Positions 3,798-61,840 of a stretch of DNA of 64,000 nucleotides are shown one piece after another. The stretch's first letter is position 1; each line of letters starts with the position of its first letter. The DNA lies in assembly GCF_002795825.1 (NCBI RefSeq), contig NZ_CP018800.1:806001-870000 (forward strand), written 5' to 3'. The notes beneath the pieces were generated by a model, which searched no databases, had not been told where the DNA came from, and saw nothing but the letters and a program-made list of their open reading frames with translations. Position numbers and translations under genes: made by a program. This DNA comes from Mariprofundus ferrinatatus (GTDB taxonomy: Bacteria > Pseudomonadota > Zetaproteobacteria > Mariprofundales > Mariprofundaceae).

Positions 3798-4685
3798 ATG
3801 AGTCTGAAAAGCAATCGTAACCAGTTAGTTAAAACCGCCGTGCAGGGGAGTGTTGCTCCTGCGCATCAATGGGCGCCGTTTGAAGTAGGGGCGGCAGGCG
3901 AAATTTTTGCCTGGCCATCAACCGGAGGCATCACTTATAACGTGAAAATTGGTGATTCAGTATTCGGCTGGGCCGGCGAACATATCGAGCCGGGTGTATC
4001 CACAACCATGAGCCACAAAAACAGTAAGGCAGAGGCCGGCTATCAGTTTCTTGCCTGTTGCGGCAATGAGGCAACGGTCATCTCCGGCGCTGCCAAGGGA
4101 GAGAAAGGAACCGTGCTCGGCCATCATGGCGGCGTTGAGCATTTGATGCTCGATTTTCCCGATGCTGTACTCGATAAACTGACCTGCGACGATAAATTTC
4201 TGATCAAAGGATATGGGCAGGGGTTGAAGCTTATCGATCACCCGGATGTCTATATCTACAGCCTCGATCCCGACGTGCTTGAGAGTTGGGGGCTGATTGA
4301 GCGAGAGGATGGCAGGATTGAAGTGCCGGTGAATGTGATTGTGCCAGGCCATGCGATGGGCTCCGGAATAGGAGCACTTTCAGTCACAACAGGCGACTAC
4401 GATATTATCTGTCACGATGAGGCGACAGTTCGAGAGTATGCTATGGATAAATTGCGTTTCGGCGATTTCGTGGCTGTACTCGATCACGATAACCGTTATG
4501 GCCGCACTTACCGTAAGGGTGCAGTTACCATTGGCGTGATTATTCACTCTGATTCCCCTTTGGGTGGCCACGGTCCGGGTATGATGACGTTGATGAGCGC
4601 GTGTGATGAAAAGCTGATACCCGTTCTGAATGAAAATGCCAACCTGGGTGCCATTAAGGGTATCGGTCGTTATGCTGTTGAATAA
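3798..4685 (+). CDS. DUF4438-family protein
   Basis: A 295-residue soluble protein that I match to the DUF4438 family, whose biochemical role is not known to me. Visible features are a Gly-rich start (FEVGAAGEIFAWPSTGG), HGGVEHLMLDFP, and a conserved GYGQGLKLIDHPDVYIYSLDP segment. Near the end HSDSPLGGHGPGMMTLMS is followed by ANLGAIKGIGRYAVE. There is no signal peptide or membrane segment. An in-frame start at 3753 exists, but the ATG at 3798 is preceded by AAAGGA and begins the conserved part. It is followed 17 bases later by a nitrilase-family amidase, so co-transcription is plausible. Confidence 0.8.
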   Translation: MSLKSNRNQLVKTAVQGSVAPAHQWAPFEVGAAGEIFAWPSTGGITYNVKIGDSVFGWAGEHIEPGVSTTMSHKNSKAEAGYQFLACCGNEATVISGAAKGEKGTVLGHHGGVEHLMLDFPDAVLDKLTCDDKFLIKGYGQGLKLIDHPDVYIYSLDPDVLESWGLIEREDGRIEVPVNVIVPGHAMGSGIGALSVTTGDYDIICHDEATVREYAMDKLRFGDFVAVLDHDNRYGRTYRKGAVTIGVIIHSDSPLGGHGPGMMTLMSACDEKLIPVLNENANLGAIKGIGRYAVE

Positions 4686-4702: not shown

Positions 4703-5500
4703 ATGCGGGTTGCCTCTATCCAGCTGAACTCAGGACGTGATGTTGATCAGAACCTGAATCGAGTCGACCATCTGCTGGCTGAAGCTGCGCAATTAAGGGC
4801 TGAGCTTGCTGTTCTGCCTGAGAATTTCGCCTTCATGGGAGGCAGTGAAGATGATAAGAGAAATGCTGCGGAAGAGCAGGATAACTCTCCAATTATAAAA
4901 CATCTTTCTGCTCAGGCTAAGAAGCATGGTATGGCGATTATTGGTGGAACCCTTCTTCTTAAGGGTGAAAAAGGTCGGCTTCGGAACAGTTCTCCCGCAT
5001 TTGATCAGGATGGCAGGCTGCTGGCGGTTTACGACAAGATCCATCTTTTCGATATGGATTATCAAGGTGAGGCTTACCGCGAATCTGCATTGATTGAGCC
5101 CGGGAGCAGGAGCGTTGTAGTCGACTTCGACAAATGGCGTATCGGGCTGAGTATCTGTTACGATCTTCGCTTTCCAGAGCTCTATCGCCTGCATGCCAGT
5201 GCGGACTGTCATATTCTCTGTAATGTTGCAGCCTTCACTGCGGTGACTGGCTCCGCTCACTGGGAACCGTTGCTTCGGGCTAGGGCAATCGAGAACCAGT
5301 GTTATGTGATTGCTTCTGCACAGACTGGTTTGCATGCTGATGGCAGGCAGACATGGGGGCACAGTATGATCATTGATCCCTGGGGTCAGATCATGGTTTC
5401 ACTTTCCGAAGGGGAGGGGGTGATTACAGCTGACCTTTCACTGGAAGAGGTTCATCGCGTGCGTAAATCCATGCCTGTTCTCCAGCACAGAAGGCTGTAG
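4703..5500 (+). CDS. Nitrilase-superfamily amidase (Nit1/deaminated-glutathione amidase type)
   Basis: Carbon-nitrogen hydrolases cleave amides with a Glu-Lys-Cys triad. All three motifs are present in this 265-residue protein: the Glu in LPENF near residue 40, the Lys in YDKIHLFD near 112, and the Cys in SICYDLRFPELYR near 151. The YDLRFPELYR stretch and the HWEPLLRARAIENQCYV segment resemble the Nit1/NIT2 branch, which hydrolyses deaminated glutathione or omega-amides as metabolite repair. The exact substrate cannot be read from the sequence. It is the last gene before the AT-rich gap with DnaA-like boxes. Confidence 0.9.
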   Translation: MRVASIQLNSGRDVDQNLNRVDHLLAEAAQLRAELAVLPENFAFMGGSEDDKRNAAEEQDNSPIIKHLSAQAKKHGMAIIGGTLLLKGEKGRLRNSSPAFDQDGRLLAVYDKIHLFDMDYQGEAYRESALIEPGSRSVVVDFDKWRIGLSICYDLRFPELYRLHASADCHILCNVAAFTAVTGSAHWEPLLRARAIENQCYVIASAQTGLHADGRQTWGHSMIIDPWGQIMVSLSEGEGVITADLSLEEVHRVRKSMPVLQHRRL

Positions 5501-37179: not shown

Positions 37180-37256
37180 GGCGCTTTAGCTCAGTCGGTT
37201 AGAGCAGCGGAATCATAATCCGCGTGTCCGGGGTTCGAGTCCCTGAAGCGCCACCA
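37180..37256 (+). tRNA. tRNA-Met (anticodon CAT, elongator type)
   Basis: All four arms fold. The acceptor is GGCGCTT with AAGCGCC, the D-arm is GCTC/GAGC, the anticodon stem is GCGGA/TCCGC with loop ATCATAA, the T-loop is TTCGAGT, and CCA is encoded. The anticodon is CAT. The body resembles elongator Met tRNAs more than lysidine Ile2. A tyrosine integrase starts about 190 bases downstream, and base composition drops there, so the 3' end is the probable attachment site of the island. Confidence 0.95.
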
Positions 37257-41742: not shown

Positions 41743-43356
41743 CAGACTGTGTAAAAACAGAATTTATGTTTCCGTCGTCATTTGAGTTCTGCCCTTTGAT
41801 TCAGGAAAACTGGCAAAGTGTTCGGGTTTTACCCTGATCCGATGCGATGGGGAAAAGCCTGATTCAGGCTTTGATTGCTGCCATCAACCCTTGAACGCCC
41901 ATGATATTGATCATGCGTTTCATATTGTAAGCTAGAACGTGAAGGCTCATCTCCGTTCTGACCCGATCCAGCCCGCGAGTCAGGAAATGGGAATGGCCCA
42001 TCCATGATTTGAGGGTGCCGAATGGATGTTCGACTGTTTCTCGCCGGATGCGCATGCAATCCGGCGATTGATCCACCCGCACCTGCATGGCTTCCAGTAC
42101 CTCTTCGTGCTCCCATCGGCTGATTCGCCGCTGCTCGCCGGGAGTGCATTGGCCCTTCAGTTGGCACTGTTGACAGTTGGAACTCCAGTACCGGTTCAGC
42201 AACTTGCCACTCTCAACTCTGGCAAAGCGCCAGATCAGTCGATCTCCCGCAGGACAAGCGTATTCGTTTTTCTCTTCATCGTAGATGAAGTCTGCTCTGT
42301 CAAAACGACCCTCCCGATTTGCTCTGGAGGTAACAGCCTTTGGAACCAAGGGCGTGATACCAGTTTCTTCGCAGGCGAGGATCTCTTCGCTTTTGTAGTA
42401 GCCACGATCTGCAACGACCTCCAGCTGTTCGACACCCATGGCATCCCGCGCCCGTACGGCCATGTTGCTAAGCTGATCCCTGTCCGTACCTGTATTGAAA
42501 ACTTCATGGGTAACGATCAGATGGTGCTTGGTATCCACTGCTGTTTGCACATTGTAACCAACGATGCCCTGGCCTCGGGTTTTCATGGAGCGGGAATCAG
42601 GGTCGGTTAGCGATATCTGATGATCCGGTGAATCCTTGATTTGTTCCTCTACGGACTTCAGTTCCTTCATCCGTTTCTTCAGGGCCGAGACCTTATCCTG
42701 CAATCGTTCATTCCGGACTTTGGCGACACCTGGCTCCTGACGGTCGGCGCTATCCATTGCTGTCAGGTAGCGCTCGATACTGGCCTCAATCTCCTGCATG
42801 CGCCGTTTGAGTTTGGCACTGGTGAAGTTCCGATCCCGGTTGTTTACTGCTTTGAACTTGCTGCCGTCGATTGCGGCAAGCGAGTCGGCAAACAGGCCCA
42901 GTTCCCGGCATAGCACAACGAACTGCCGACAGACGCCACGAATACCTTTTCCATTGTCCTTACGGAAGTTGGCGATGGTTTTAAAATCCGGAGTCAGACG
43001 GCCAAGTAGCCACATCAGTTCAACATTGCGCTGGGCTTCTCGTTCCAGACGACGGCTTGATTGGATGCGGTTGAGATATCCATAGATATAAAGCTTCAGA
43101 AGTACCGCCGGGTGATAGGCAGGTCTCCCTGTGTCTGCCGGATTCACGCCCGTGAATCCGAGCTGTTCCAGATCCAGCTCATCAACAAAGACATCCACGA
43201 TGCGGACTGGATTGGACTCTTCAACATATTCATCGATTATTTCGGGAAGCAATGTTCCCTGCGTTCGGCTTTGACCCTCAATGAAACGCTTCATCAAAAC
43301 GCCCCCTGATTCCGGATGATTACACTCTATCAGGGTTCACGTTTTTACACAGTCTG
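41743..43356 (-). mobile_element. IS1182-family insertion sequence
   Basis: The 1,614-bp element has inverted ends CAGACTGTGTAAAAAC (41,743-41,758) and its complement at 43,341-43,356. It is flanked by a GGCC direct repeat at 41,739-41,742 and 43,357-43,360. It interrupts the 38-bp repeat; the sequence after it (GGCCAAAAGC) resumes much as the intact copy continues (GGCCAACTTC). It carries one transposase on the minus strand. Confidence 0.88.
41864..43297 (-). CDS. IS1182-family transposase
   Basis: A 477-residue DDE transposase. The N-terminal DUF772-type domain (RPAYHPAVLLKLYIYGYLNR) is followed by FRKDNGKGIRGVCRQFVVL. The first catalytic Asp lies in LAAIDGSKFKAVNNRDRNFT, the second in VADRGYYKSEEI and the Glu in the C-terminal region near RRETVEHPFGTLKSWMG. 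A Cys-rich strip (CQQCQLKGQC) sits before it. The frame is intact, so the element may still move. It fills nearly the whole element. Confidence 0.93.
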   Translation of the reverse strand: MMKRFIEGQSRTQGTLLPEIIDEYVEESNPVRIVDVFVDELDLEQLGFTGVNPADTGRPAYHPAVLLKLYIYGYLNRIQSSRRLEREAQRNVELMWLLGRLTPDFKTIANFRKDNGKGIRGVCRQFVVLCRELGLFADSLAAIDGSKFKAVNNRDRNFTSAKLKRRMQEIEASIERYLTAMDSADRQEPGVAKVRNERLQDKVSALKKRMKELKSVEEQIKDSPDHQISLTDPDSRSMKTRGQGIVGYNVQTAVDTKHHLIVTHEVFNTGTDRDQLSNMAVRARDAMGVEQLEVVADRGYYKSEEILACEETGITPLVPKAVTSRANREGRFDRADFIYDEEKNEYACPAGDRLIWRFARVESGKLLNRYWSSNCQQCQLKGQCTPGEQRRISRWEHEEVLEAMQVRVDQSPDCMRIRRETVEHPFGTLKSWMGHSHFLTRGLDRVRTEMSLHVLAYNMKRMINIMGVQGLMAAIKA

Positions 43357-43360
43357 GGCC

Positions 43361-44690
43361 AAAAGCATCGGTAATCGGGCTGGCGATTATCGTCTAAGCT
43401 CCTAGTAGCTCGCATAGCGAGCAGCAAGGAGGTTTATCATGGCTTATTACACTGCATTGGATGTATCTCTACGTTCGGTTTCCATCTGTATTATTGATGA
43501 TAACGGAGTGGTTTGCTTCGAAGATAAGGTGGTTTCAGAGGTTGATGAGATTGTTTCCTGTCTGAAGCGGTTCAGCCCTGAGATCAAATCTATTGGCTTT
43601 GAAGCAGGAACATTAACTCAATATCTCAGCTATGGATTACAGGCCGTAGGGTTTGAAGTTATCTGCATGGAAGCAAGGCAAGTCAGCGCAGCGCTTTCAG
43701 CCATGCGTAACAAGACAGATAAGAATGATGCGCGGGGTATCGCGCAAATCCTGCGTAGTGGCTGGTACAGCCGCGTCCATGTTAAAAGCATGGAGAGTCA
43801 CCTGATCCGTGCCTTGCTGTCAGGCAGGAAAGCGGTTTTGAAGAAGTGTGTGGATCTGGAGAACGAGATTCGCGGACTGATCAGGCTGCTTGGCATCAAG
43901 CTTCCCTGTTCGGTTAAGCATGGTGCTTTTGATGATGTTGTACGCCCGATAGTCGAAGAGCATGGCCTGATGACCAATTCCCTCATCCCACTACTTGATG
44001 CACGGTCAATACTCTATAAAACCTATCTCAAACTGGATGGACAAGTTCTTGCCTTGGCACGGAAGGATGAGATCTGCCAGCGATTGATGACAGTGCCAGG
44101 CGTTGGAGCAATCACAGCATTGACCTACAAGGCTGGCGTGGATGATCCATCACGATTCAAGCGGTCACGCACTGTTGCTGCACACTTCGGCTTAACACCG
44201 AGGCGTTTTCAATCCGGTGAGCTGGATAATCCGGGGCATATCTCCAGAGCTGGCGATGCCGATGTTCGCTCTGCCCTTTATGTGGCGGCGCACTCGCTGG
44301 TAATTCGCTCTGATAAATGGACATATCTGAAGGCTTGGGGTTTGCGCCTCTCTAAAACTAAAGGGCACAGGCGAGCTGTGATTGCCGTGGCACGAAAGCT
44401 TGCTGTCATCCTGCACAGGATATGGATTGATGAGACCGATTTCCGTTATGGCTCTACGGAGGTGACAACATGAACTGACTTCGTAGCTCTATAACAGAAA
44501 CGTCCCTCGTGTGGACGAATGTCTGGATGAAGCCGTAAATGTCTGCTGCGCCAACCAAGCGCGACCAAAAGCCTGGCTCTCCACTCTGTCTGACTTATGC
44601 GTGCAGCGGGCTAGATCTATCAGCTCGACTGCGGAAAGGAGCCTGACCCACCACGATAGACAAAACCGAGGCGAACTCGGCATATTTTAG
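43361..44690 (+). mobile_element. IS110-family element (ends approximate)
   Basis: An IS110 transposase with short upstream and about 215 bases of downstream non-coding DNA that is GC-richer than the surrounding island. A perfect hairpin GCTCGC-ATA-GCGAGC lies at 43,408-43,422 just before the ribosome site. IS110 elements lack simple inverted ends, so the boundaries cannot be fixed. A longer 3' than 5' flank fits the IS1111-like subgroup, where the bridge RNA is downstream. Confidence 0.55.
43439..44473 (+). CDS. IS110-family transposase
   Basis: A 344-residue DEDD-type recombinase. The N-terminal RuvC-like domain begins YYTALDVSLRSVSICIID (first Asp) and has FEAGTLTQYL (Glu) and RNKTDKNDARGIAQIL (Asp pair). 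The C-terminal Tnp domain has LMTVPGVGAITALT and RAGDADVRSALYVAA, with the catalytic serine in this part. AAGGAGG precedes the ATG. The gene is intact and lies 78 bases beyond the IS1182 copy. Confidence 0.93.
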   Translation: MAYYTALDVSLRSVSICIIDDNGVVCFEDKVVSEVDEIVSCLKRFSPEIKSIGFEAGTLTQYLSYGLQAVGFEVICMEARQVSAALSAMRNKTDKNDARGIAQILRSGWYSRVHVKSMESHLIRALLSGRKAVLKKCVDLENEIRGLIRLLGIKLPCSVKHGAFDDVVRPIVEEHGLMTNSLIPLLDARSILYKTYLKLDGQVLALARKDEICQRLMTVPGVGAITALTYKAGVDDPSRFKRSRTVAAHFGLTPRRFQSGELDNPGHISRAGDADVRSALYVAAHSLVIRSDKWTYLKAWGLRLSKTKGHRRAVIAVARKLAVILHRIWIDETDFRYGSTEVTT

Positions 44691-53007: not shown

Positions 53008-53098
53008 GTTACAGGTTCTGTGAGTTCTTCGGACGAGCAAGGAAGAGTCGAAATTTAGAGGGTATACATCATATTTTGGTGTATGGACTGGAGTGGAA

Positions 53099-53860
53099 AT
53101 GTCGCGATGGTTGTTTTTTGGGGCAATAATAGGCCTTTTTATTGGAGGTTGGATTGGTGCCATATTTGGTGGTTTTTTAGGCGCTGTGATCTCCAATGGC
53201 ATTAACAGTGCGGCCAAAGAAAATGGAAGCCCATTTGATGCCAATTCAGGTGGCAGTAGTTCTAACCTTGTTTTCTATCAGATCGTGTTCTCGATGCTGG
53301 CTAAGATGGCGAAAGCCGATGGAAGTATAAGTGCGAAGGAAGCTGAGCATATCAACAACCTAGCCACTCATGAACTCCAGATGGATTTAGATACAAAGAA
53401 GGTGGCTAAGCAGGCTTTTAATAGTGCGTTAAAAGATGATAACACCATCTATGACTATGCAAAGAAGCTTAAACAATTAACTGCAAGTCGAGAGTTGCTA
53501 GAGCTGGTCTATCGATTCCTGTTTACAGTCGCATATGCAGACAAGACAACGCATCCAGATGAAATAGAAATTCTAAAAAACATACCGCCTTACCTTGGTC
53601 TACCAAGCTCTTCCTATGACGTGCTTCGAGAAGAGTTTGAAGGTGTAAGCATTGAATTAAGCCAAGCTTATGAGCTCATAGGGTGCAAGCCAGATGATAC
53701 TGATGCTGCTGTGAAGAAAGCATGGCGCAATCGGTGTAATGAGTATCACCCTGATAAACTGATGTCGAAAAATTTGCCTGATGCATTTATGAAGTTTGCA
53801 CACGAACAAATGCATCAAATCAATCAGGCATATGAAACAATCATGGCTAGCCGGAGCTAA
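53099..53860 (+). CDS. DjlA-like membrane-anchored TerB/J-domain co-chaperone
   Basis: A 253-residue protein with an N-terminal Gly-zipper membrane helix (FFGAIIGLFIGGWIGAIFGG). A TerB-like helical domain follows (FSMLAKMAKADGSISAKEAE, FTVAYADKTTHPDEIEIL), then a C-terminal J domain with the HPD motif in CNEYHPDKLMSKNLPD. This is the DjlA order, so it probably recruits DnaK to a membrane partner. The ATG at 53,099 follows GGAG; a GTG at 53,093 is also open. It is the third gene of the cassette. Confidence 0.82.
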   Translation: MSRWLFFGAIIGLFIGGWIGAIFGGFLGAVISNGINSAAKENGSPFDANSGGSSSNLVFYQIVFSMLAKMAKADGSISAKEAEHINNLATHELQMDLDTKKVAKQAFNSALKDDNTIYDYAKKLKQLTASRELLELVYRFLFTVAYADKTTHPDEIEILKNIPPYLGLPSSSYDVLREEFEGVSIELSQAYELIGCKPDDTDAAVKKAWRNRCNEYHPDKLMSKNLPDAFMKFAHEQMHQINQAYETIMASRS

Positions 53861-53910: not shown

Positions 53911-53938
53911 TTGACGAAAACAAGTTTTAAGCTATAAT
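53911..53938 (+). promoter_or_regulatory. Sigma-70 promoter for the NT5C-like gene
   Basis: TTGACG (53,911-53,916) and TATAAT (53,933-53,938) are 16 bases apart. A start near 53,945 would give a leader of about 134 bases. Confidence 0.75.
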
Positions 53939-53944
53939 TGTAGT

Positions 53945-54078
53945 ACATCAAGAGAAGAGCTGATGCTCTCGCCAACCTGTCTTCCCAGACAAAGGTGGTT
54001 TCCCGAAAGGGGATGTGGTCGTACCGGCAACTAAACAGGGTACAAGCCTCCTTGGTGATAACTAACGGAGGCTTTTTT
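53945..54078 (+). ncRNA. Structured 5' leader (candidate riboswitch or attenuator)
   Basis: Five stems can be drawn: AGAGC-TGAT-GCTCT (53,956-53,969), CCAACCTGTCT with AGACAAAGGTGG (53,972-53,998), TCCC-GAAA-GGGG (54,001-54,012), GTACC with GGTAC (54,021-54,043), and the last AAGCCTCC with GGAGGCTT (54,044-54,074). The last stem is followed by a T-run. It covers the GGAGG ribosome site of the gene that starts at 54,079, so it can act as terminator and as ribosome-site blocker. I do not match it to a known riboswitch class. Confidence 0.55.
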
Positions 54079-54705
54079 ATGACAAAACAAAATGGTTCGG
54101 ATGCAAAAAAGAAAGTTTTGTTTATCGACATGGACAACGTGTTGGTGGACTTTCAGTCGGGTATTAACCAACTGAACGAGGAACAGCTCAAGGAATACGA
54201 AGGAAGGTATGACGAGGTTCCAGGTATCTTCTCGACTATGAAGCCAAAAGAGGGTGCTTTAGAAGCCTTCCGGCTATTAGCGAGGAAATTCGACGCCTAT
54301 ATATTGTCGACAGCCCCGTGGGAGAATCCATCGGCGTGGAGCGATAAGCTCGAATGGGTAAAGAAGTATCTAGGCGACCCAGCCTATAAGCGACTGATCC
54401 TTTCCCACCACAAGAATCTAAGCGAGGGCGACTACCTTATTGATGATCGAACTGCCAATGGTGCAGATCGCTTTACAGGTGAGCACATTCACTTCGGCAC
54501 AGAAAAGTTCACTAACTGGTATAGCGTTCTACATTACCTAACCAAAAAAGAAGGATACATAGGTATCTTGCAGGCTCCGCCGGATCACCCGATTTATACG
54601 CGTGGCTACATTATTGGTGGAATGTGCTCGACGGGCCTTCCGAAAGCTTCGGCATCTAAGAATGGTGACTCCGATTCTTCAAATATAGAGGAAAGTGAAT
54701 CATGA
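54079..54705 (+). CDS. NT5C-like HAD-family 5'-nucleotidase
   Basis: A 208-residue HAD phosphatase. The catalytic motif I is VLFIDMDNVLVDFQSGINQL (DMDN, nucleophile Asp and general acid Asp). Motif II is AYILSTAPWENP, and the C-terminal DYLIDDRTANGADRF is motif IV. This is the 5'(3')-deoxyribonucleotidase (NT5C) pattern. It could trim nucleotide pools in phage-related or defence contexts, though this is inference. The ATG at 54,079 is favoured over 53,995 because the earlier start lies inside the leader stems. Its stop overlaps the ATG of a 13-codon frame. Confidence 0.82.
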   Translation: MTKQNGSDAKKKVLFIDMDNVLVDFQSGINQLNEEQLKEYEGRYDEVPGIFSTMKPKEGALEAFRLLARKFDAYILSTAPWENPSAWSDKLEWVKKYLGDPAYKRLILSHHKNLSEGDYLIDDRTANGADRFTGEHIHFGTEKFTNWYSVLHYLTKKEGYIGILQAPPDHPIYTRGYIIGGMCSTGLPKASASKNGDSDSSNIEESES

Positions 54706-54804: not shown

Positions 54805-56274
54805 TCAATGTCCGCTTTGGTAATTATGCAATGCATCTGCAATTTTCACCATCGCCAACGTATCAAGTTTACAATACTCAAGAAGTGAACTCGATATCTT
54901 CTGCCTAACTCGTAAATCAGCATCTGATGAAATTGCATCGTAGTAAGCAACCTGTGCCTCGCTACCATCATGGACGCTTCCAACTAAAGTGCTATAGGTG
55001 AGCTCAGGAACAAGCGCCGGCAGCACGCTCTTGATCGACCATGAGCCCATCATTGATGGATGGTAGTAATGCTTTTGCATAATCTTAAGTAAATCAAAGA
55101 CACGTGCATTCAAAGCTAGCAATTCATCGCTTAAGTCAGGGAAAGCCTCTGCCAATTCACGAATGCGTGATTTTTCAAAGGATTCGTTATAAACGATAAT
55201 CGGCCCCTCATCCCCGCAACAAGCTATGAGGCTTTCAGCGAATTCCCTTCTTGGATCATTCCCAGTGATATCCAGAAACTCTTTATGATCGCTGTGATCA
55301 TTCTTATGATAAATATGACATGACCATTGAAATGGAACTTGCATATAAGGCCGAGTCTTCTTCCAGTGCGGCACGGCAAATCCAATAGTTTCAAAATCCA
55401 GATAATACCTTGGCCATCCAAGCTTTTTGAGAATTGAGGTTGCCTCAGGATCAAGGTGGGGTTTGCCGCTAATAGTGACTTCCCGGACACGTTTCTGTTT
55501 CTCGCTGGTAAGAAAGCCATTTGGAATATCTCTTACATCGTCTATTCCCTGGTCCTGAAGCTTTTGAGCTGCTCTCCACCCATTGGGGAGAATCGAAACC
55601 GGATATTTCGGACCACTCTGCTTACAGTAATCAATATAATCGCATTTATATGGCTTCTTGCATTGCGAGCCCATCTTAATCTGGGGCAGATCACCATCAA
55701 GCATCCTGATGAATAGATCCTTCTTTCCTGCCATATCTTCAATAATACCTGAAACTGATGCAGTTATATCCTGCCACGCAAACAGCCCCATAAAATTGCC
55801 GTCTCCCTGATACATAAACTCATTATTGATGAACTGGAGATATTCACCTTCTAACTCAACTCCACACATCTTAATGACCCATGTTTGAATCGCTACATCA
55901 GGGATGTGTTGGTCTTTGCATTCTGTTGATGATTTTACTTCAGTTAGAAACCAGCCCTGATTACCACGCTCAAGAATGTCAGCGCGAATAAAGACTTCTC
56001 CATACTTAAAGCTCGCTTCATAAATCACATTCACATTCGTATCAGCAATAGCCTTTTTCGTATCCTCGATTGCTTGAAGTGGCCCGTTATCCATAGAAAT
56101 AAGTGTGCCATCCATGAAGGTCCGAGAGAGAGAACCTACTTCATTACCATTAATGAATTGCATTTGAGGGGCGCTTTCTCCCAACGAATCTGTCCGGTGG
56201 ATCGCCAAATAAAGTTTTTTAGGGCATTGAAGTCCTGCCATGAAATTAGATTTGGATAAATGCCCTTTCACCAT
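54805..56274 (-). CDS. DUF2779 protein: Cas4-like nuclease fused to a DEDD-type exonuclease
   Basis: A 489-residue protein with two nuclease-like parts. The N-terminal half resembles Cas4-type PD-(D/E)XK: FIRADILERGNQGWFLTEVKSST gives Asp and Glu-x-Lys, an early Cys lies in GLQCPKKLYLAIHRTD, and QCKKPYKCDYIDYC looks like a 4Fe-4S cluster. The C-terminal half looks like an RNase H-fold exonuclease: YYLDFETIGF, IIVYNESFEKSRIRELA and LLEYCKLDTLAMVKI give the acidic set. DUF2779 proteins often lie in defence islands. It is divergent from the ssp operon and could share its regulatory region. Confidence 0.78.
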   Translation of the reverse strand: MVKGHLSKSNFMAGLQCPKKLYLAIHRTDSLGESAPQMQFINGNEVGSLSRTFMDGTLISMDNGPLQAIEDTKKAIADTNVNVIYEASFKYGEVFIRADILERGNQGWFLTEVKSSTECKDQHIPDVAIQTWVIKMCGVELEGEYLQFINNEFMYQGDGNFMGLFAWQDITASVSGIIEDMAGKKDLFIRMLDGDLPQIKMGSQCKKPYKCDYIDYCKQSGPKYPVSILPNGWRAAQKLQDQGIDDVRDIPNGFLTSEKQKRVREVTISGKPHLDPEATSILKKLGWPRYYLDFETIGFAVPHWKKTRPYMQVPFQWSCHIYHKNDHSDHKEFLDITGNDPRREFAESLIACCGDEGPIIVYNESFEKSRIRELAEAFPDLSDELLALNARVFDLLKIMQKHYYHPSMMGSWSIKSVLPALVPELTYSTLVGSVHDGSEAQVAYYDAISSDADLRVRQKISSSLLEYCKLDTLAMVKIADALHNYQSGH

Positions 56275-56373
56275 CACTCTCCCAAACTTCAGGTATAGAA
56301 ATAATATAGGCTATATATGCTGAATTGTGAATGCCTCTTTTAGGGAGAGGGCGCATTTTTATGCAAGATATCT

Positions 56374-56430: not shown

Positions 56431-56622
56431 ATGCCAAAGGGTACAAGTGGACGGGTAGTGATCGAGATGGATCCGCAGTTAAAATCTGACCTATATGCCA
56501 TGTTGAGTTTGCAAGGTATGACCATGAAAGAGTGGTTTATGCAAAATGTCACAAAGGCTTTGGATGATGGTCCCCAGTTGCCATTGGCTTTTTCAGAAGG
56601 CCTCAATCAGGATGGTGAGTAA
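56431..56622 (+). CDS. Small RHH-like regulator at the head of the ssp operon
   Basis: A 63-residue protein: SGRVVIEMDPQLKSDLYAML at residues 6-25 gives the beta strand and first helix of a ribbon-helix-helix fold. GMTMKEWFMQNVTKALDDG gives the second helix. GGAGG is 12 bases before the ATG. It lies five bases before sspB and presumably represses the operon through the palindrome in its promoter. It could also be an antitoxin-like or accessory protein. No toxin is adjacent. Confidence 0.7.
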   Translation: MPKGTSGRVVIEMDPQLKSDLYAMLSLQGMTMKEWFMQNVTKALDDGPQLPLAFSEGLNQDGE

Positions 56623-56626
56623 TATC

Positions 56627-57571
56627 ATGTCTACTCAACAACACTCCATTCAATTTAACTCCAAATCATTTTCATTTGGGCGCCATGAAACATTTGCACT
56701 TCGTTTTGGTTGGCTCACAAAGGGTTTTCAAGGGCTGACAATCAATCCAGATATTTTTTTGGATGAGGATGCCACCGTTCACCTTGGCGTTGGTAAAAAC
56801 ATGGTGTCGTCCATTCGATATTGGATGTTAGCAACAAAAATTGCTGAGATAAAAGGTTCACATATAGAGGCTTCAGAAATAGGACATTTAATTTTTTCTG
56901 AAACTGGCTGGGATCCTTACCTTGAAGATGAGGCGACGATTTGGCTGCTTCATTGGCTGTTGGCATCAAACAGTCAGCATGCGACAGCGGTATATTGGTT
57001 TTTTAATCACTTCCACAAATCTGAATTTTCTTCAGATGAGATGTTTGGGGGAATGAAAGAGTTTGTTGGAGAGCGCTTAGAGGGTAAGAAAGTTGCTGAT
57101 TCATCCCTTAAGCACGATTGCAACATACTTACGAGGTTATACGTTCCATCTCAGGGTGATAAACGAACGCCTGTTGAAGATGCCTTAGACTCACCACTTT
57201 CCACACTAGGGCTGATGAATAAAAGTGAACTTTCAAATCGTTATGTGTCTAAGCCTGATGGGCGCTGGGATATCCCTTTAGGTGTGATTGGCTATGCTAT
57301 TGGGGAGCTATTCGAAGCAAGTGATCAGTCTAGTGTCGCTATTGAAGCCATTGTTCATGGGACTGAATCAATGCCTGGGCTTGGCTCAACTTTCAGAATT
57401 ACAGAAGAATGTTTGGTGTCAAAAATCGAAGAGCTGATAACTTGGGTGCCCGGTGTGTTTGAATTAAGGGAGAGTGCCGGCATTTATTTACTTTACCAGT
57501 TGGAAGAGATGTTGCCGATAGAGTTTCTTAATATGCATTATAAAGCTTATGAAATGGAGATTGCCGCATGA
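56627..57571 (+). CDS. sspB: SspB-like DNA phosphorothioation protein (DUF4007)
   Basis: A 314-residue DUF4007 protein: FSFGRHETFALRFGWLTKGF opens it, then LGVGKNMVSSIRYWMLATKI, GWDPYLEDEATIWLLHWLL and HGTESMPGLGSTFRI. In the Ssp system, SspB is the DNA-nicking component that acts with SspC and SspD to insert sulfur into one DNA strand. It overlaps sspC by four bases. An ATG at 56,612 would add five residues. The family assignment is from memory of DUF4007 and from the operon; the nicking role is established for Vibrio SspB. Confidence 0.86.
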   Translation: MSTQQHSIQFNSKSFSFGRHETFALRFGWLTKGFQGLTINPDIFLDEDATVHLGVGKNMVSSIRYWMLATKIAEIKGSHIEASEIGHLIFSETGWDPYLEDEATIWLLHWLLASNSQHATAVYWFFNHFHKSEFSSDEMFGGMKEFVGERLEGKKVADSSLKHDCNILTRLYVPSQGDKRTPVEDALDSPLSTLGLMNKSELSNRYVSKPDGRWDIPLGVIGYAIGELFEASDQSSVAIEAIVHGTESMPGLGSTFRITEECLVSKIEELITWVPGVFELRESAGIYLLYQLEEMLPIEFLNMHYKAYEMEIAA

Positions 57572-60500
57572 ATTGGTCTGACTCGATTTCGATTAATGCT
57601 CATTATACCCGCTCCATTCATTTAGAACGAGATGCATCAAGCGAAGATGTAGTTCGAGCATACATCCCTACTTCACGTGCTTTAAAAATCCTTAGTGATT
57701 TTTCTAAGACATTAAATACAGGAACGGTTCCTAGGTCCTGGGCTTTAACTGGTCCATATGGATCGGGGAAGTCATCGTTTGCGGTTTTTGTATCCCACCT
57801 CTTAGAAGACCCTGAAAGTAGTTCTGCACGGTTAGCTATTGAAACGTTAAAAAATGCTGATGCCGATTTGGCCGATCAGATTGAAGGAAAGTTAAAGGGA
57901 AGCAAAGGACATTGCAGGGTGCTACTGACAGGTAGCCCTGAGCCATTAGCCAAAAGGCTTCTTCATGCAATCTATCTAGGTGCTAAGTCATATTGGTCCG
58001 CTAAGCGAGGAAGAACACCTTTAGTAGTTAAACAGATCGAGCAGGCTATTGCCGATCAAAACCACTCTACTTATGAAGTGGTCGAGATATTAAAATCACT
58101 GAGAACTGCCGTTTCAAAATCAGGTGGAAGTGGCATTCTCTTGGTTATTGATGAGCTGGGTAAGTTTCTTGAGGCCGAGGCAAGAAATTTTGGAACGAAT
58201 GATATTTATCTTCTGCAGGCTGTTGCCGAGCAGGCTTGTGATAAAGGCAGTGTTCCAATTCATTTCTTTGTCTTACTTCACCAGTCTATTGAGTTATATG
58301 CTAAGGGGTTAGGTGAAACGCTTAAGCATGAGTGGCAGAAGGTCCAAGGCCGATTTGAGAGTGTGCCGTTTCTTGAATCCGTTGAACAAACTCTGCGTGT
58401 AACGCGAGCAGCATTTATTCAAGACTTTGATGCCAAGACTAAAAAGAAAATTCACCAAGAACTGTTGCCTATTTCTAAAGCTCTTGAAGAAGCGAGTGCT
58501 CTGCCTGGAGTATTAGATGCTGATGCTGCAGTCGAGCTGTTTTCCGGCTGCTATCCACTCCATCCTGTATCACTGCTATTGTTGCCACTTCTTTGCCAGA
58601 GGGTGGCTCAAAATGAACGGACACTGTTCAGCTATTTAGGCAGCCGTGAAAGCCATGGATTAAGTGATTCTATCACTCGGTTTGATTCAAGTGAAAAAAA
58701 CATCCCTTGGGTGTACCCATGGGAGATCTATGAGTACTTTATCCTTAATCAGCCTGTAGCAGTATCTGATCACTTTACTCATAGACGCTGGGCTGAGGTG
58801 GTTACTGCTGTTGAGCGTCTTGGTGATTCTTCAGAAGATGAGTTGCACCTTATAAAATCTATTGGGCTAATGAATATTATTGGTGCAAAAGGTGGCTTAA
58901 AGTCATCAATCGAGCTGTTGGAGTGCTGTACTCCATTTGGAAAAAGAAAGCTAAAAACGCTTCTTACTGACCTCCAAGAGAAGTCAGTAATCTCTTATAG
59001 AAAATATAGTGGTGAATATCGTATCTGGCAGGGCAGTGACTTTGATTTGGAGCTTGAGCTCCAGAATGAGATTGAGAATGGAAAAGGCCTGGAACTAGTC
59101 GATGAGCTCAATGAAAGGGGGAGTTTTTCTCCAATCGTTGCGAGGCGCTATACGATTAAAACAGGCTCATTACGCTATTTCGCGCCGCTGTTTGCAGATG
59201 TTAAATCGATCAAACGTCTTGAGAAGAAGGCAGACGAACCAAGGATTCTGTTTTTACTTGCTGGGTCACCAATCGAGAAAGAGTTGCTTGTGAAGAAAGC
59301 AGCATCTTTATGCGGAGGAATGACTGTTGCTGCGGTTTGCTCATTAGGCAGCGAAGTTAAACAAGCGGTTCAAGAGGTGTTGGCTCTTGAACGAATCATT
59401 AGGAACAATTCAAAGTTAAGCGGAGATCCCGTTGCTCAACGTGAATTGAAGGATCGATTAAGTGCAGCCAAAGCACTAGAGAAGCAGCTGCTAGAGTCTG
59501 TCGTTGTTAATCCAGGACAGCATCAATGGTTGTATGCGAATAAGACGCTTCAAGTAACTAGTAGAAGGGCGCTGCAGTTTGAGCTCTCAAATATCTTGGA
59601 GGAGGTCTATAGCAAGGCTCCTATTATTAAGAATGAGCTGCTAAATCGAACAAAACCATCTTCAAGTGCAATCTCAGGGAGAAACAAACTCATAGTTGCA
59701 ATGCTTGAGCATGCAAGCTTGCCAGAGCTTGGTATTGAAAAATATCCTGCAGAAAAGGCGATCTATAAGTCTGTTTTGGAAGCAACAGGGCTGCATTCAA
59801 AGCATGGAGGTTCATGGGCTTTTGGTGCGCCCGCACAGAATGATCCTTGCAAGCTTAAACCGACTTGGGATTCTATTTTAGACTTCTTCGAAAGAAGTGA
59901 GGCACAGGCATTGCCTATTGCAGACCTTTTTGAGGAGCTTCAGCTCCCACCTCTCGGCATCAAGGCCGGAGTCATTCCCGTATTGTTTATCGCCTCATAT
60001 TTTGCCAATCAACATGAACTTGCACTCTATGAGGATGGTCACTTTTGCCCTGTAATATCGCATGAGGTTATTGAGCGTTTAATTAAGAATCCAAACACAT
60101 TCTCGGTTCAGCGTTTTAGGATTTCTGGAATGCGGGTCTCAGTGTATGAGAAATACATGGAGATGGTCACAGGAACAACATATAAAAAGCTAGACCTTAT
60201 CGGACTAGTAAGACCTTTGGCTAAGTTTATGAATGGTCTTCCAGATCATGCCAAACGAACCAAGCTTATTTCAAAAGAAGCTCAAGCAGTTCGGCGCGTA
60301 TTCTTTTCTGCGAAATCACCAGCATCCCTTTTATTTGAAGATGTTCCAATAGCTTGTGGATTTCCAAAGTTTGATGCTGAAGCTTCTAATGGAAATGAAG
60401 TGAAAGAGTTTTCTGAGGCATTTATTCGAGTTTTAAAAGAGCTGAAGGATGCATACCCAAACCTGCTTAACCTACTCCAAGAAAAGCTGGGGGGAGCTTT

Positions 60501-61068
60501 CCCCGATAGCAAAGCAGTTGATCTATGCGATTTCCGGAATAATTTGCATGGGCGCTTTGTTGGTCTTGAGCGCTACACAGTTGATGCAGAAGGGGTAAAG
60601 GCATTTGTGCTTCGCCTTTGTGACGAGGGCTTTAAGGATGATCAACAGTGGCTTGAGAGCTTAGCTGCCTTCCTTGGAAGAAAACCTGCTGAGAAGTGGA
60701 ATGACGATGACCTTCAGCTGGCTGATTTTAGACTGGCTGATTTTTCAGAGCGCTTACATGACCTGGAAATGCTTCGTTCCTCACATGAAAAGAACCAGTC
60801 ACATACGGATGTTAATTTTGACTCAACTTTAATTCGGATTATGAGGCAGGGAGAAGCATCAAAGGACAGGATTATCCACACAGATGAGAAAAAGCGCCTT
60901 GCCTATCAAGGGGTGGCTAGCCAACTTGAAAAGGCTCTGGATCAGCTGGATGAGCCTTTGAGACTAGCATTATTGACAGATTTACTAAACTCAGCTTTAA
61001 ACAGTGGAAGAGAAAAGCTGCCTGCACCTGCAACGACATTAAAAGGGAAGTCATTGAACAATGAATAG
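57568..61068 (+). CDS. sspC: SspC-like ATPase of DNA phosphorothioation
   Basis: A 1166-residue cytoplasmic ATPase. The Walker A motif is TGPYGSGKSS at residues 61-70 and the Walker B is GILLVIDELGKF with Asp195-Glu196. The FVLLHQSIELYAKGL segment follows, where the sensor region would be. The remaining about 900 residues are mostly helical, with no other known domain. In the Ssp system SspC is the ATPase that powers single-strand phosphorothioate insertion. It overlaps sspD by eight bases. It is an unusually long single frame for the island, with no frameshift. Confidence 0.85.
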   Translation: MNWSDSISINAHYTRSIHLERDASSEDVVRAYIPTSRALKILSDFSKTLNTGTVPRSWALTGPYGSGKSSFAVFVSHLLEDPESSSARLAIETLKNADADLADQIEGKLKGSKGHCRVLLTGSPEPLAKRLLHAIYLGAKSYWSAKRGRTPLVVKQIEQAIADQNHSTYEVVEILKSLRTAVSKSGGSGILLVIDELGKFLEAEARNFGTNDIYLLQAVAEQACDKGSVPIHFFVLLHQSIELYAKGLGETLKHEWQKVQGRFESVPFLESVEQTLRVTRAAFIQDFDAKTKKKIHQELLPISKALEEASALPGVLDADAAVELFSGCYPLHPVSLLLLPLLCQRVAQNERTLFSYLGSRESHGLSDSITRFDSSEKNIPWVYPWEIYEYFILNQPVAVSDHFTHRRWAEVVTAVERLGDSSEDELHLIKSIGLMNIIGAKGGLKSSIELLECCTPFGKRKLKTLLTDLQEKSVISYRKYSGEYRIWQGSDFDLELELQNEIENGKGLELVDELNERGSFSPIVARRYTIKTGSLRYFAPLFADVKSIKRLEKKADEPRILFLLAGSPIEKELLVKKAASLCGGMTVAAVCSLGSEVKQAVQEVLALERIIRNNSKLSGDPVAQRELKDRLSAAKALEKQLLESVVVNPGQHQWLYANKTLQVTSRRALQFELSNILEEVYSKAPIIKNELLNRTKPSSSAISGRNKLIVAMLEHASLPELGIEKYPAEKAIYKSVLEATGLHSKHGGSWAFGAPAQNDPCKLKPTWDSILDFFERSEAQALPIADLFEELQLPPLGIKAGVIPVLFIASYFANQHELALYEDGHFCPVISHEVIERLIKNPNTFSVQRFRISGMRVSVYEKYMEMVTGTTYKKLDLIGLVRPLAKFMNGLPDHAKRTKLISKEAQAVRRVFFSAKSPASLLFEDVPIACGFPKFDAEASNGNEVKEFSEAFIRVLKELKDAYPNLLNLLQEKLGGAFPDSKAVDLCDFRNNLHGRFVGLERYTVDAEGVKAFVLRLCDEGFKDDQQWLESLAAFLGRKPAEKWNDDDLQLADFRLADFSERLHDLEMLRSSHEKNQSHTDVNFDSTLIRIMRQGEASKDRIIHTDEKKRLAYQGVASQLEKALDQLDEPLRLALLTDLLNSALNSGREKLPAPATTLKGKSLNNE

Positions 61069-61840
61069 TCCGCAAAAAAAAGAGCGCCACGTTCTAGGTA
61101 TATCAGGTGGAAAAGATAGCGCAGCCCTGGCGATTTACCTCAGGGATAAAGTTCCGGATATGGAATACTTTTTTACTGATACCGGAGCTGAGCTTGATGA
61201 AACATTGGATTTCATTGAGCGGTTAGAAGCTTACCTTGGAAAGCGCATTGATCGCCTTAGCCCAGAACGAGATTTTGAACACTTTCTTAAGCTTTATGGC
61301 AATTTTTTACCATCACCACGCGCACGCTGGTGTACGCGGGAGTTGAAATTAAAGCCATTTGAAAAATGGATTGGTGATGACCAAGTCGTCAGCTATGTGG
61401 GAATCCGAGCCGATGAGAACCGTGAGGGTTACGTAAGTACCAAGCCAAACATTAAGGCCGTGTTCCCATTCAAGGAAGATGGGTTAATTAAAGAGGATAT
61501 CTTTCGGATTCTAGAAGAATCGGGTGTCGGTGTTCCAGAGTACTATAAGTGGCGTAGCCGCTCTGGCTGCTACTTTTGCTTCTTTCAGCGAAAGAAAGAA
61601 TGGATAGGCCTTCTTAACACACATCCTGAACTTTTTGAGAAAGCTATGGCTTTTGAAAAGTTTGATGAAGAAAGTGGTAAACGTTTTACTTGGAATCAAA
61701 AAGAAAGTCTTGAAGAGCTGGTGGCAAGAGCGTCTGATATAGATATGGTGATGAATGAAAGAGAGAAAAAGGTTTCGTGGCAGGAAGCCCTTGCAGATGA
61801 GGATGAAGACGATGATGCGTGTTTGATTTGTACTTTATAG
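61061..61840 (+). CDS. sspD: SspD-like PAPS-reductase-type sulfurtransferase
   Basis: A 259-residue PP-loop ATP pyrophosphatase like DndC. The nucleotide-binding SGGKDS is at residues 15-20. EYFFTDTGAELDETLDFI, RARWCTREL and the Cys pair CYFC in RSGCYFCFFQRKKEW follow. These are the sulfur-activating and cluster-binding elements of DNA-sulfur enzymes. The C-terminus is acidic and ends in CLICTL. It activates and transfers sulfur supplied by a cysteine desulfurase (SspA), which is not encoded in the window; a host IscS could serve. Confidence 0.9.
   Translation: MNSPQKKERHVLGISGGKDSAALAIYLRDKVPDMEYFFTDTGAELDETLDFIERLEAYLGKRIDRLSPERDFEHFLKLYGNFLPSPRARWCTRELKLKPFEKWIGDDQVVSYVGIRADENREGYVSTKPNIKAVFPFKEDGLIKEDIFRILEESGVGVPEYYKWRSRSGCYFCFFQRKKEWIGLLNTHPELFEKAMAFEKFDEESGKRFTWNQKESLEELVARASDIDMVMNEREKKVSWQEALADEDEDDDACLICTL

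Follow-up and report, generated by a model that had tools for sequence, protein, structure and literature searches.

The leader in front of a deoxyribonucleotidase gene in the window (the whole stretch of 64,000 nucleotides that was analysed) is, by its sequence, a riboswitch of the SAM-I/IV class, and it very probably acts as an OFF switch on the translation of this monocistronic gene. The aptamer itself is ordinary; the target is unusual, a gene that lies beyond the known methionine/SAM regulon. The following elements make up the unit.

53911..53938, plus strand: promoter, with -35 TTGACG 53911-53916, a 16-nt spacer and -10 TATAAT 53933-53938
53940..54044, plus strand: SAM-I/IV riboswitch aptamer (RF01725), 68.1 bits, cut-off 41.1
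53945-53949/54012-54016, plus strand: P1 of the aptamer fold
53956-53960/53965-53969, plus strand: P2 of the aptamer fold
53971-53982/53987-53999, plus strand: P3 of the aptamer fold
54002-54004/54009-54011, plus strand: P4 of the aptamer fold
54018-54021/54025-54028, plus strand: P5 of the aptamer fold
53947-53948, plus strand: A6/U7 of the SAM-contact core
53952, plus strand: G11 of the SAM-contact core
53973-53974, plus strand: C44/A45 of the SAM-contact core
53996-53997, plus strand: U57/G58 of the SAM-contact core
54013-54014, plus strand: A87/U88 of the SAM-contact core
53946..53955, plus strand: 5' half of the anti-sequestor, CAUCAAG(A)GA, overlapping the P1 5' strand and part of the core
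54049..54057, plus strand: 3' half of the anti-sequestor, UCCUUGGUG, overlapping the sequestor 5' arm
54044..54078, plus strand: sequestor hairpin, AAGCCTCC 54044-54051 with GGAGGCTT 54067-54074, an inner stem and the U-run 54073-54078
54079..54705, plus strand: NT5C-type 5'(3')-deoxyribonucleotidase, 208 aa, PF06941 E 5.4e-14

The sequence-only reading had described a TTGACG-16-TATAAT promoter followed by a leader of about 134 bases with stems, and both coordinates and promoter were confirmed, the latter agreeing with the consensus at 11 of 12 positions. It is the sole match of at least 11/12 with 16–18 nt spacing within 37150-64000, and matches this good are expected at 0.017 per 3.5 kb (dinucleotide shuffles). 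From a transcription start that we infer near 53945, the leader extends 134 nt to the ATG at 54079. Its predicted fold (-49.0 kcal/mol) is more stable than the shuffle mean of -36.6 (z -3.2; 1 of 500 shuffles equally good), that of 53944-54085 gives z -4.1, and stems P1 to P5 are all present ahead of the sequestor hairpin.

The identity of the aptamer is well supported by several observations. A scan of the entire window with Rfam returned RF01725 at 53940-54044 and one tRNA, and nothing else; the RF01725 match covers the whole model (positions 1-99 of 99) and is the single copy in the 2.30-Mb single-contig genome. This class corresponds to the 'SAM-I-IV-variant' of Weinberg et al. 2010 (PMC2864571), which is separated from SAM-I and SAM-IV by a P2 without an internal loop (PMC2864571), and P2 of the leader, AGAGC/GCUCU, is uninterrupted. 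The SAM-I model, RF00162, gives no match at the leader, its sole match in the genome at E <= 0.001 being the resident SAM-I riboswitch at 400391-400525, before threonine synthase. The bases of the SAM-I ligand site are A6, U7, G11, C44, A45, U57, G58, A87 and U88 (roles from PMC3764141); all those checked are present in the leader and nearly all are invariant across the 21 aligned rows, with C44 set adjacent to A45 by our own comparison with SAM-I; the core alignment gives this label to the base one column earlier.

Relatives of the leader, found in virus contigs and in 18 of the 398 genomes sampled from the phylum, point to the same ligand. The gene metK lies downstream of leader L181 and of the virus-contig leader L184, and a MetA-type homoserine acyltransferase lies downstream of L170, with similar proteins recognised by eye at L173 and L177; because relatives stand before metK and MetA, SAM is the expected ligand. 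Downstream of L174 lies a gene for a PLP-dependent aldolase-like protein, which by eye resembles the products at L176 and L178-L180, and other leaders precede several small ORFs of unknown function. Small proteins of unknown function also follow the SAM-I/IV leaders L172, L169, L183, L186, L190 and L191, from other genomes and virus contigs, several of which have the same ribosome-site hairpin; the protein downstream of L191 is a DUF3293 protein. In the genus relative G015 (L002 1501-1599), a SAM-I/IV leader precedes a 268-aa protein without a Pfam match.

Covarying homologues, the check proposed along with the earlier reading, were found. In the 21 aligned leaders, taken from the genus, from elsewhere in the phylum and from virus contigs, 95.7% of the cells are paired and both sides change in 10 of 22 pairs. 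On each of the five covariation measures the alignment exceeds all 500 shuffles, and the measures collapse when the partners are slid; these tests are somewhat favourable to the structure because it was derived from the same alignment. The leaders used were confirmed by RF01725, and L193-L195, below its cut-off, were excluded; pattern matches in virus contigs were mostly protein-coding or chance. Complementarity between the P3 loop and the 3' tail is likewise matched within sequences (27 leaders; mean score 11.9, permuted 10.2; 0 of 2000 permutations), and in the window leader this pseudoknot comprises CCC/GGG only.

Downstream of the aptamer, the sequestor hairpin holds the ribosome site. In the folding of the full leader the GGAGG at 54067-54071, 7 nt upstream of the ATG, has a pairing probability of at least 0.999, which agrees with the earlier proposal that the last stem covers it. 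The start codon directly after a T-run is also as described: six T's (54073-54078) are followed by the ATG without a gap. This layout, CCTCC...GGAGG-U-run-ATG, is common to several relatives.

The element that would connect the aptamer with this hairpin, and that does not appear in the earlier reading, is the anti-sequestor helix, which in the folding models is the switching element and excludes P1 and the sequestor together. For transcripts ending at 54060-54066 the minimum free energy fold is the anti-sequestor, with 53946-53955 paired with 54049-54057. When the ribosome site is held free, the anti-sequestor fold has -40.2 kcal/mol and the fold in which P1 is forced has -35.9, a difference that ligand binding could plausibly tip. 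The full leader reaches -51.0 kcal/mol with the ribosome site hidden and prefers the OFF state by 10.8 kcal/mol in a model that contains no ligand; the ON state must therefore be kinetic. The duplex of the P1 strand with the platform is better than expected from shuffles (p 0.0035), and that of the 5' arm with the platform gives p 0.022 with a wide platform and beats 2000 of 2000 shuffles when the platform is narrowed. Of the 27 sequences put to this test of 5'-arm/platform pairing, 14 give p<0.05 against 1.4 expected, a figure that is not a strict probability because the sequences are related. The window leader uses its P1 strand; in L172, L184, L187 and L191 it is mainly the P2 5' strand that pairs with the arm before CCTCC, and the L002 leader (sister genus) has no 5'-arm/platform pairing (p 0.97).

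In the mechanism that we propose, the P1 5' strand (53946-53955) would pair with 54049-54057 as the RNA emerges when SAM is low, and the anti-sequestor would block the sequestor, leaving the GGAGG free and the gene ON. Plentiful SAM would hold P1 closed, so that 54044-54051 could pair with GGAGGCUU and ribosomes would be excluded; some transcripts might also terminate at the U-run. Because P1 and the hairpin over the ribosome site are opened at once by the anti-sequestor, the gene should be silenced at high SAM, and a dNMP phosphatase would be made when SAM is low. As to its purpose, we hold only weakly to the guess that a drop in SAM marks methyl-group or methionine stress, and that the hydrolysis of dUMP/dTMP would then hold back the synthesis of thymidylate and of DNA.

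The product of the gene, already recognised as an NT5C-like nucleotidase and assigned to PF06941 at the E value listed above, is a putative dNMP-dephosphorylating enzyme of the NT5C family with a HAD-type fold. Its relatives in the PDB are cdN/mdN, and the best Foldseek matches of the AlphaFold model (mean pLDDT 80) are cdN/mdN and a Staphylococcus homologue. Of the catalytic-type residues, D17, D19, K112, D122 and D123 do not vary among 23 sequences, and T78 hardly varies; the C-terminus carries some 50 additional residues that are predicted to be disordered, with pLDDT under 50 at 171-202. The nearest sequences belong to Bacteroidota and Neomarinimicrobiota, with many more in virus contigs, a distribution as expected for a mobile gene. 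The unit appears monocistronic, given that the following gene (54805-56277) faces the opposite way, convergent with the nucleotidase gene. That gene, on the minus strand, encodes a DUF2779 protein in which one stretch weakly resembles a Cas4-like nuclease, and 53093-53860 on the plus strand encodes a DjlA-like protein with TerB and DnaJ domains, under the NCBIfam cut-off.

Near 37.2 kb the GC content falls from about 0.55 to 0.44, beside a tRNA and an integrase, and the region from 37180 to 64000 is probably a mobile genomic island. Its landmarks are these.

37180-37256: tRNA, CAT anticodon
37432-38631: integrase
56546-61840, plus strand: SspB-, SspC- and SspD-like phosphorothioation defence genes (PADLOC)
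from 61857, plus strand: GmrSD_N (DUF262-type) protein, downstream of the SspB/C/D-like genes

The GmrSD_N protein could be SspE. A search of the genome for a repeat of the tRNA 3' end, which would mark the right end of the island, gave none. An IS1182-type transposase adjoins an IS110-type transposase at 41864-44473. A SAM-I riboswitch is present in 19 of the 19 genus genomes checked, and as the genus has its own resident SAM-I, the sensor on the island is a second one for SAM and of another kind. A mobile island would thus carry its own metabolite sensor, of a class other than that of its host.

The pairing of this riboswitch with a nucleotidase is unusual. A scan with model R1 covered 44 NT5C loci from genomes, plasmids, phages and viruses and 76 additional virus contigs, about 120 loci besides the one described here, and found a SAM-I/IV element near NT5C in one, Alteromonas facilis (L006), a count that is a lower bound since several loci hold little upstream DNA. 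A general association of SAM-I/IV with NT5C genes was accordingly rejected. In Alteromonas facilis the riboswitch (4568-4681) is followed by a 102-aa ORF and then by NT5C at 4983, with an integrase-type gene nearby; the ORF matches nothing in Pfam or PHROG and has no relatives among the virus contigs. RF01725 is absent from the Vibrio, Pseudomonas and Pseudoalteromonas plasmid records and from KVP40. In the open-access literature (subscription papers lay mostly outside the scope), a search for a riboswitch with a deoxyribonucleotidase found only work on cyclic-di-GMP.

Several other explanations have to be weighed against translational control by SAM. The last stem had been taken both as a cover for the GGAGG and as a terminator, and if the second role dominated, the same SAM-I/IV riboswitch would act mainly by ending transcription at the GC-rich hairpin and its U-run. 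A stable hairpin (-17.5 kcal/mol by itself) followed by U's agrees with this, but just four U's lie beyond the 8-bp stem before the AUG and the hairpin was not listed by the terminator scan, although that scan takes loops of 3-8 nt only and so excludes it; the terminator is for these reasons weaker than the cover. The stem itself, moreover, holds the GGAGG at an ideal distance from the ATG, and we regard control mainly by termination as unlikely. The ligand proposed earlier, a (deoxy)nucleotide, fares worse. A SAM-I/IV scaffold whose ligand had changed in this way would suit a deoxyribonucleotidase, an odd target for the family, but the Rfam scan matched another element, RF01725, far over its cut-off, the SAM-contact bases checked are all unchanged, the relatives precede metK and metA and not nucleotide genes, and the other NT5C-linked leader, L006, has a standard SAM core too. 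A nucleotide-sensing riboswitch was rejected on these grounds as hardly credible, and the assignment to SAM corrects the ligand; the underlying idea of a ligand-type switch whose last stem lies over the ribosome site of an NT5C-like gene is supported.

It is harder to set aside the view, doubtful but with a real share of the probability, that riboswitch and nucleotidase are a chance fusion in a recombining island, in which the switch may work while SAM control has no selected role. The mobile setting speaks for it, as does the presence of RF01725 in just 2 of 23 genus genomes, ahead of unrelated genes; the two SAM-linked NT5C proteins are also not sisters in the tree, though a single origin of their genes is possible. 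Against it stand the Alteromonas facilis locus, where a second SAM-I/IV leader is separated from the NT5C gene downstream by a single small ORF, and the promoter, aptamer core and switching strands, which are all intact here. Should the link prove functional, it would couple deoxynucleotide pools to methyl-donor status. The setting of infection suggested earlier is not supported: none is shown, and the site is a genomic island. The riboswitch might be the island's infection alarm: a phage that drains or degrades SAM, for example by an anti-restriction SAM-cleaving enzyme, would release the deoxyribonucleotidase and so lower the dNMP supply for phage DNA synthesis. We consider this very improbable; if true, it would be a riboswitch-triggered nucleotide-depletion defence beside the SspBCD genes.

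Compared with known systems, the protein shares the PF06941 HAD-type fold and catalytic-type residues with cdN/mdN and with the homologue of the T4-like Vibrio phage KVP40, which is 60% identical to it, whereas it extends C-terminally beyond about residue 160; its gene, unlike that in the KVP40 record, has a SAM-riboswitch leader. With SAM-I (RF00162) the leader has the ligand-binding core and the proposed OFF logic in common, and it differs from that class in its P2 without an internal loop and in the lack of an RF00162 match. With SAM-I/IV (RF01725) it shares the full-model match in sequence and structure, the uninterrupted P2, the SAM-contact core, the P5 hairpin and an expression-platform layout also found in relatives; it departs from this class in its weak P3-loop/tail pseudoknot and in its target, which is here a deoxyribonucleotidase and not a methionine/SAM gene.
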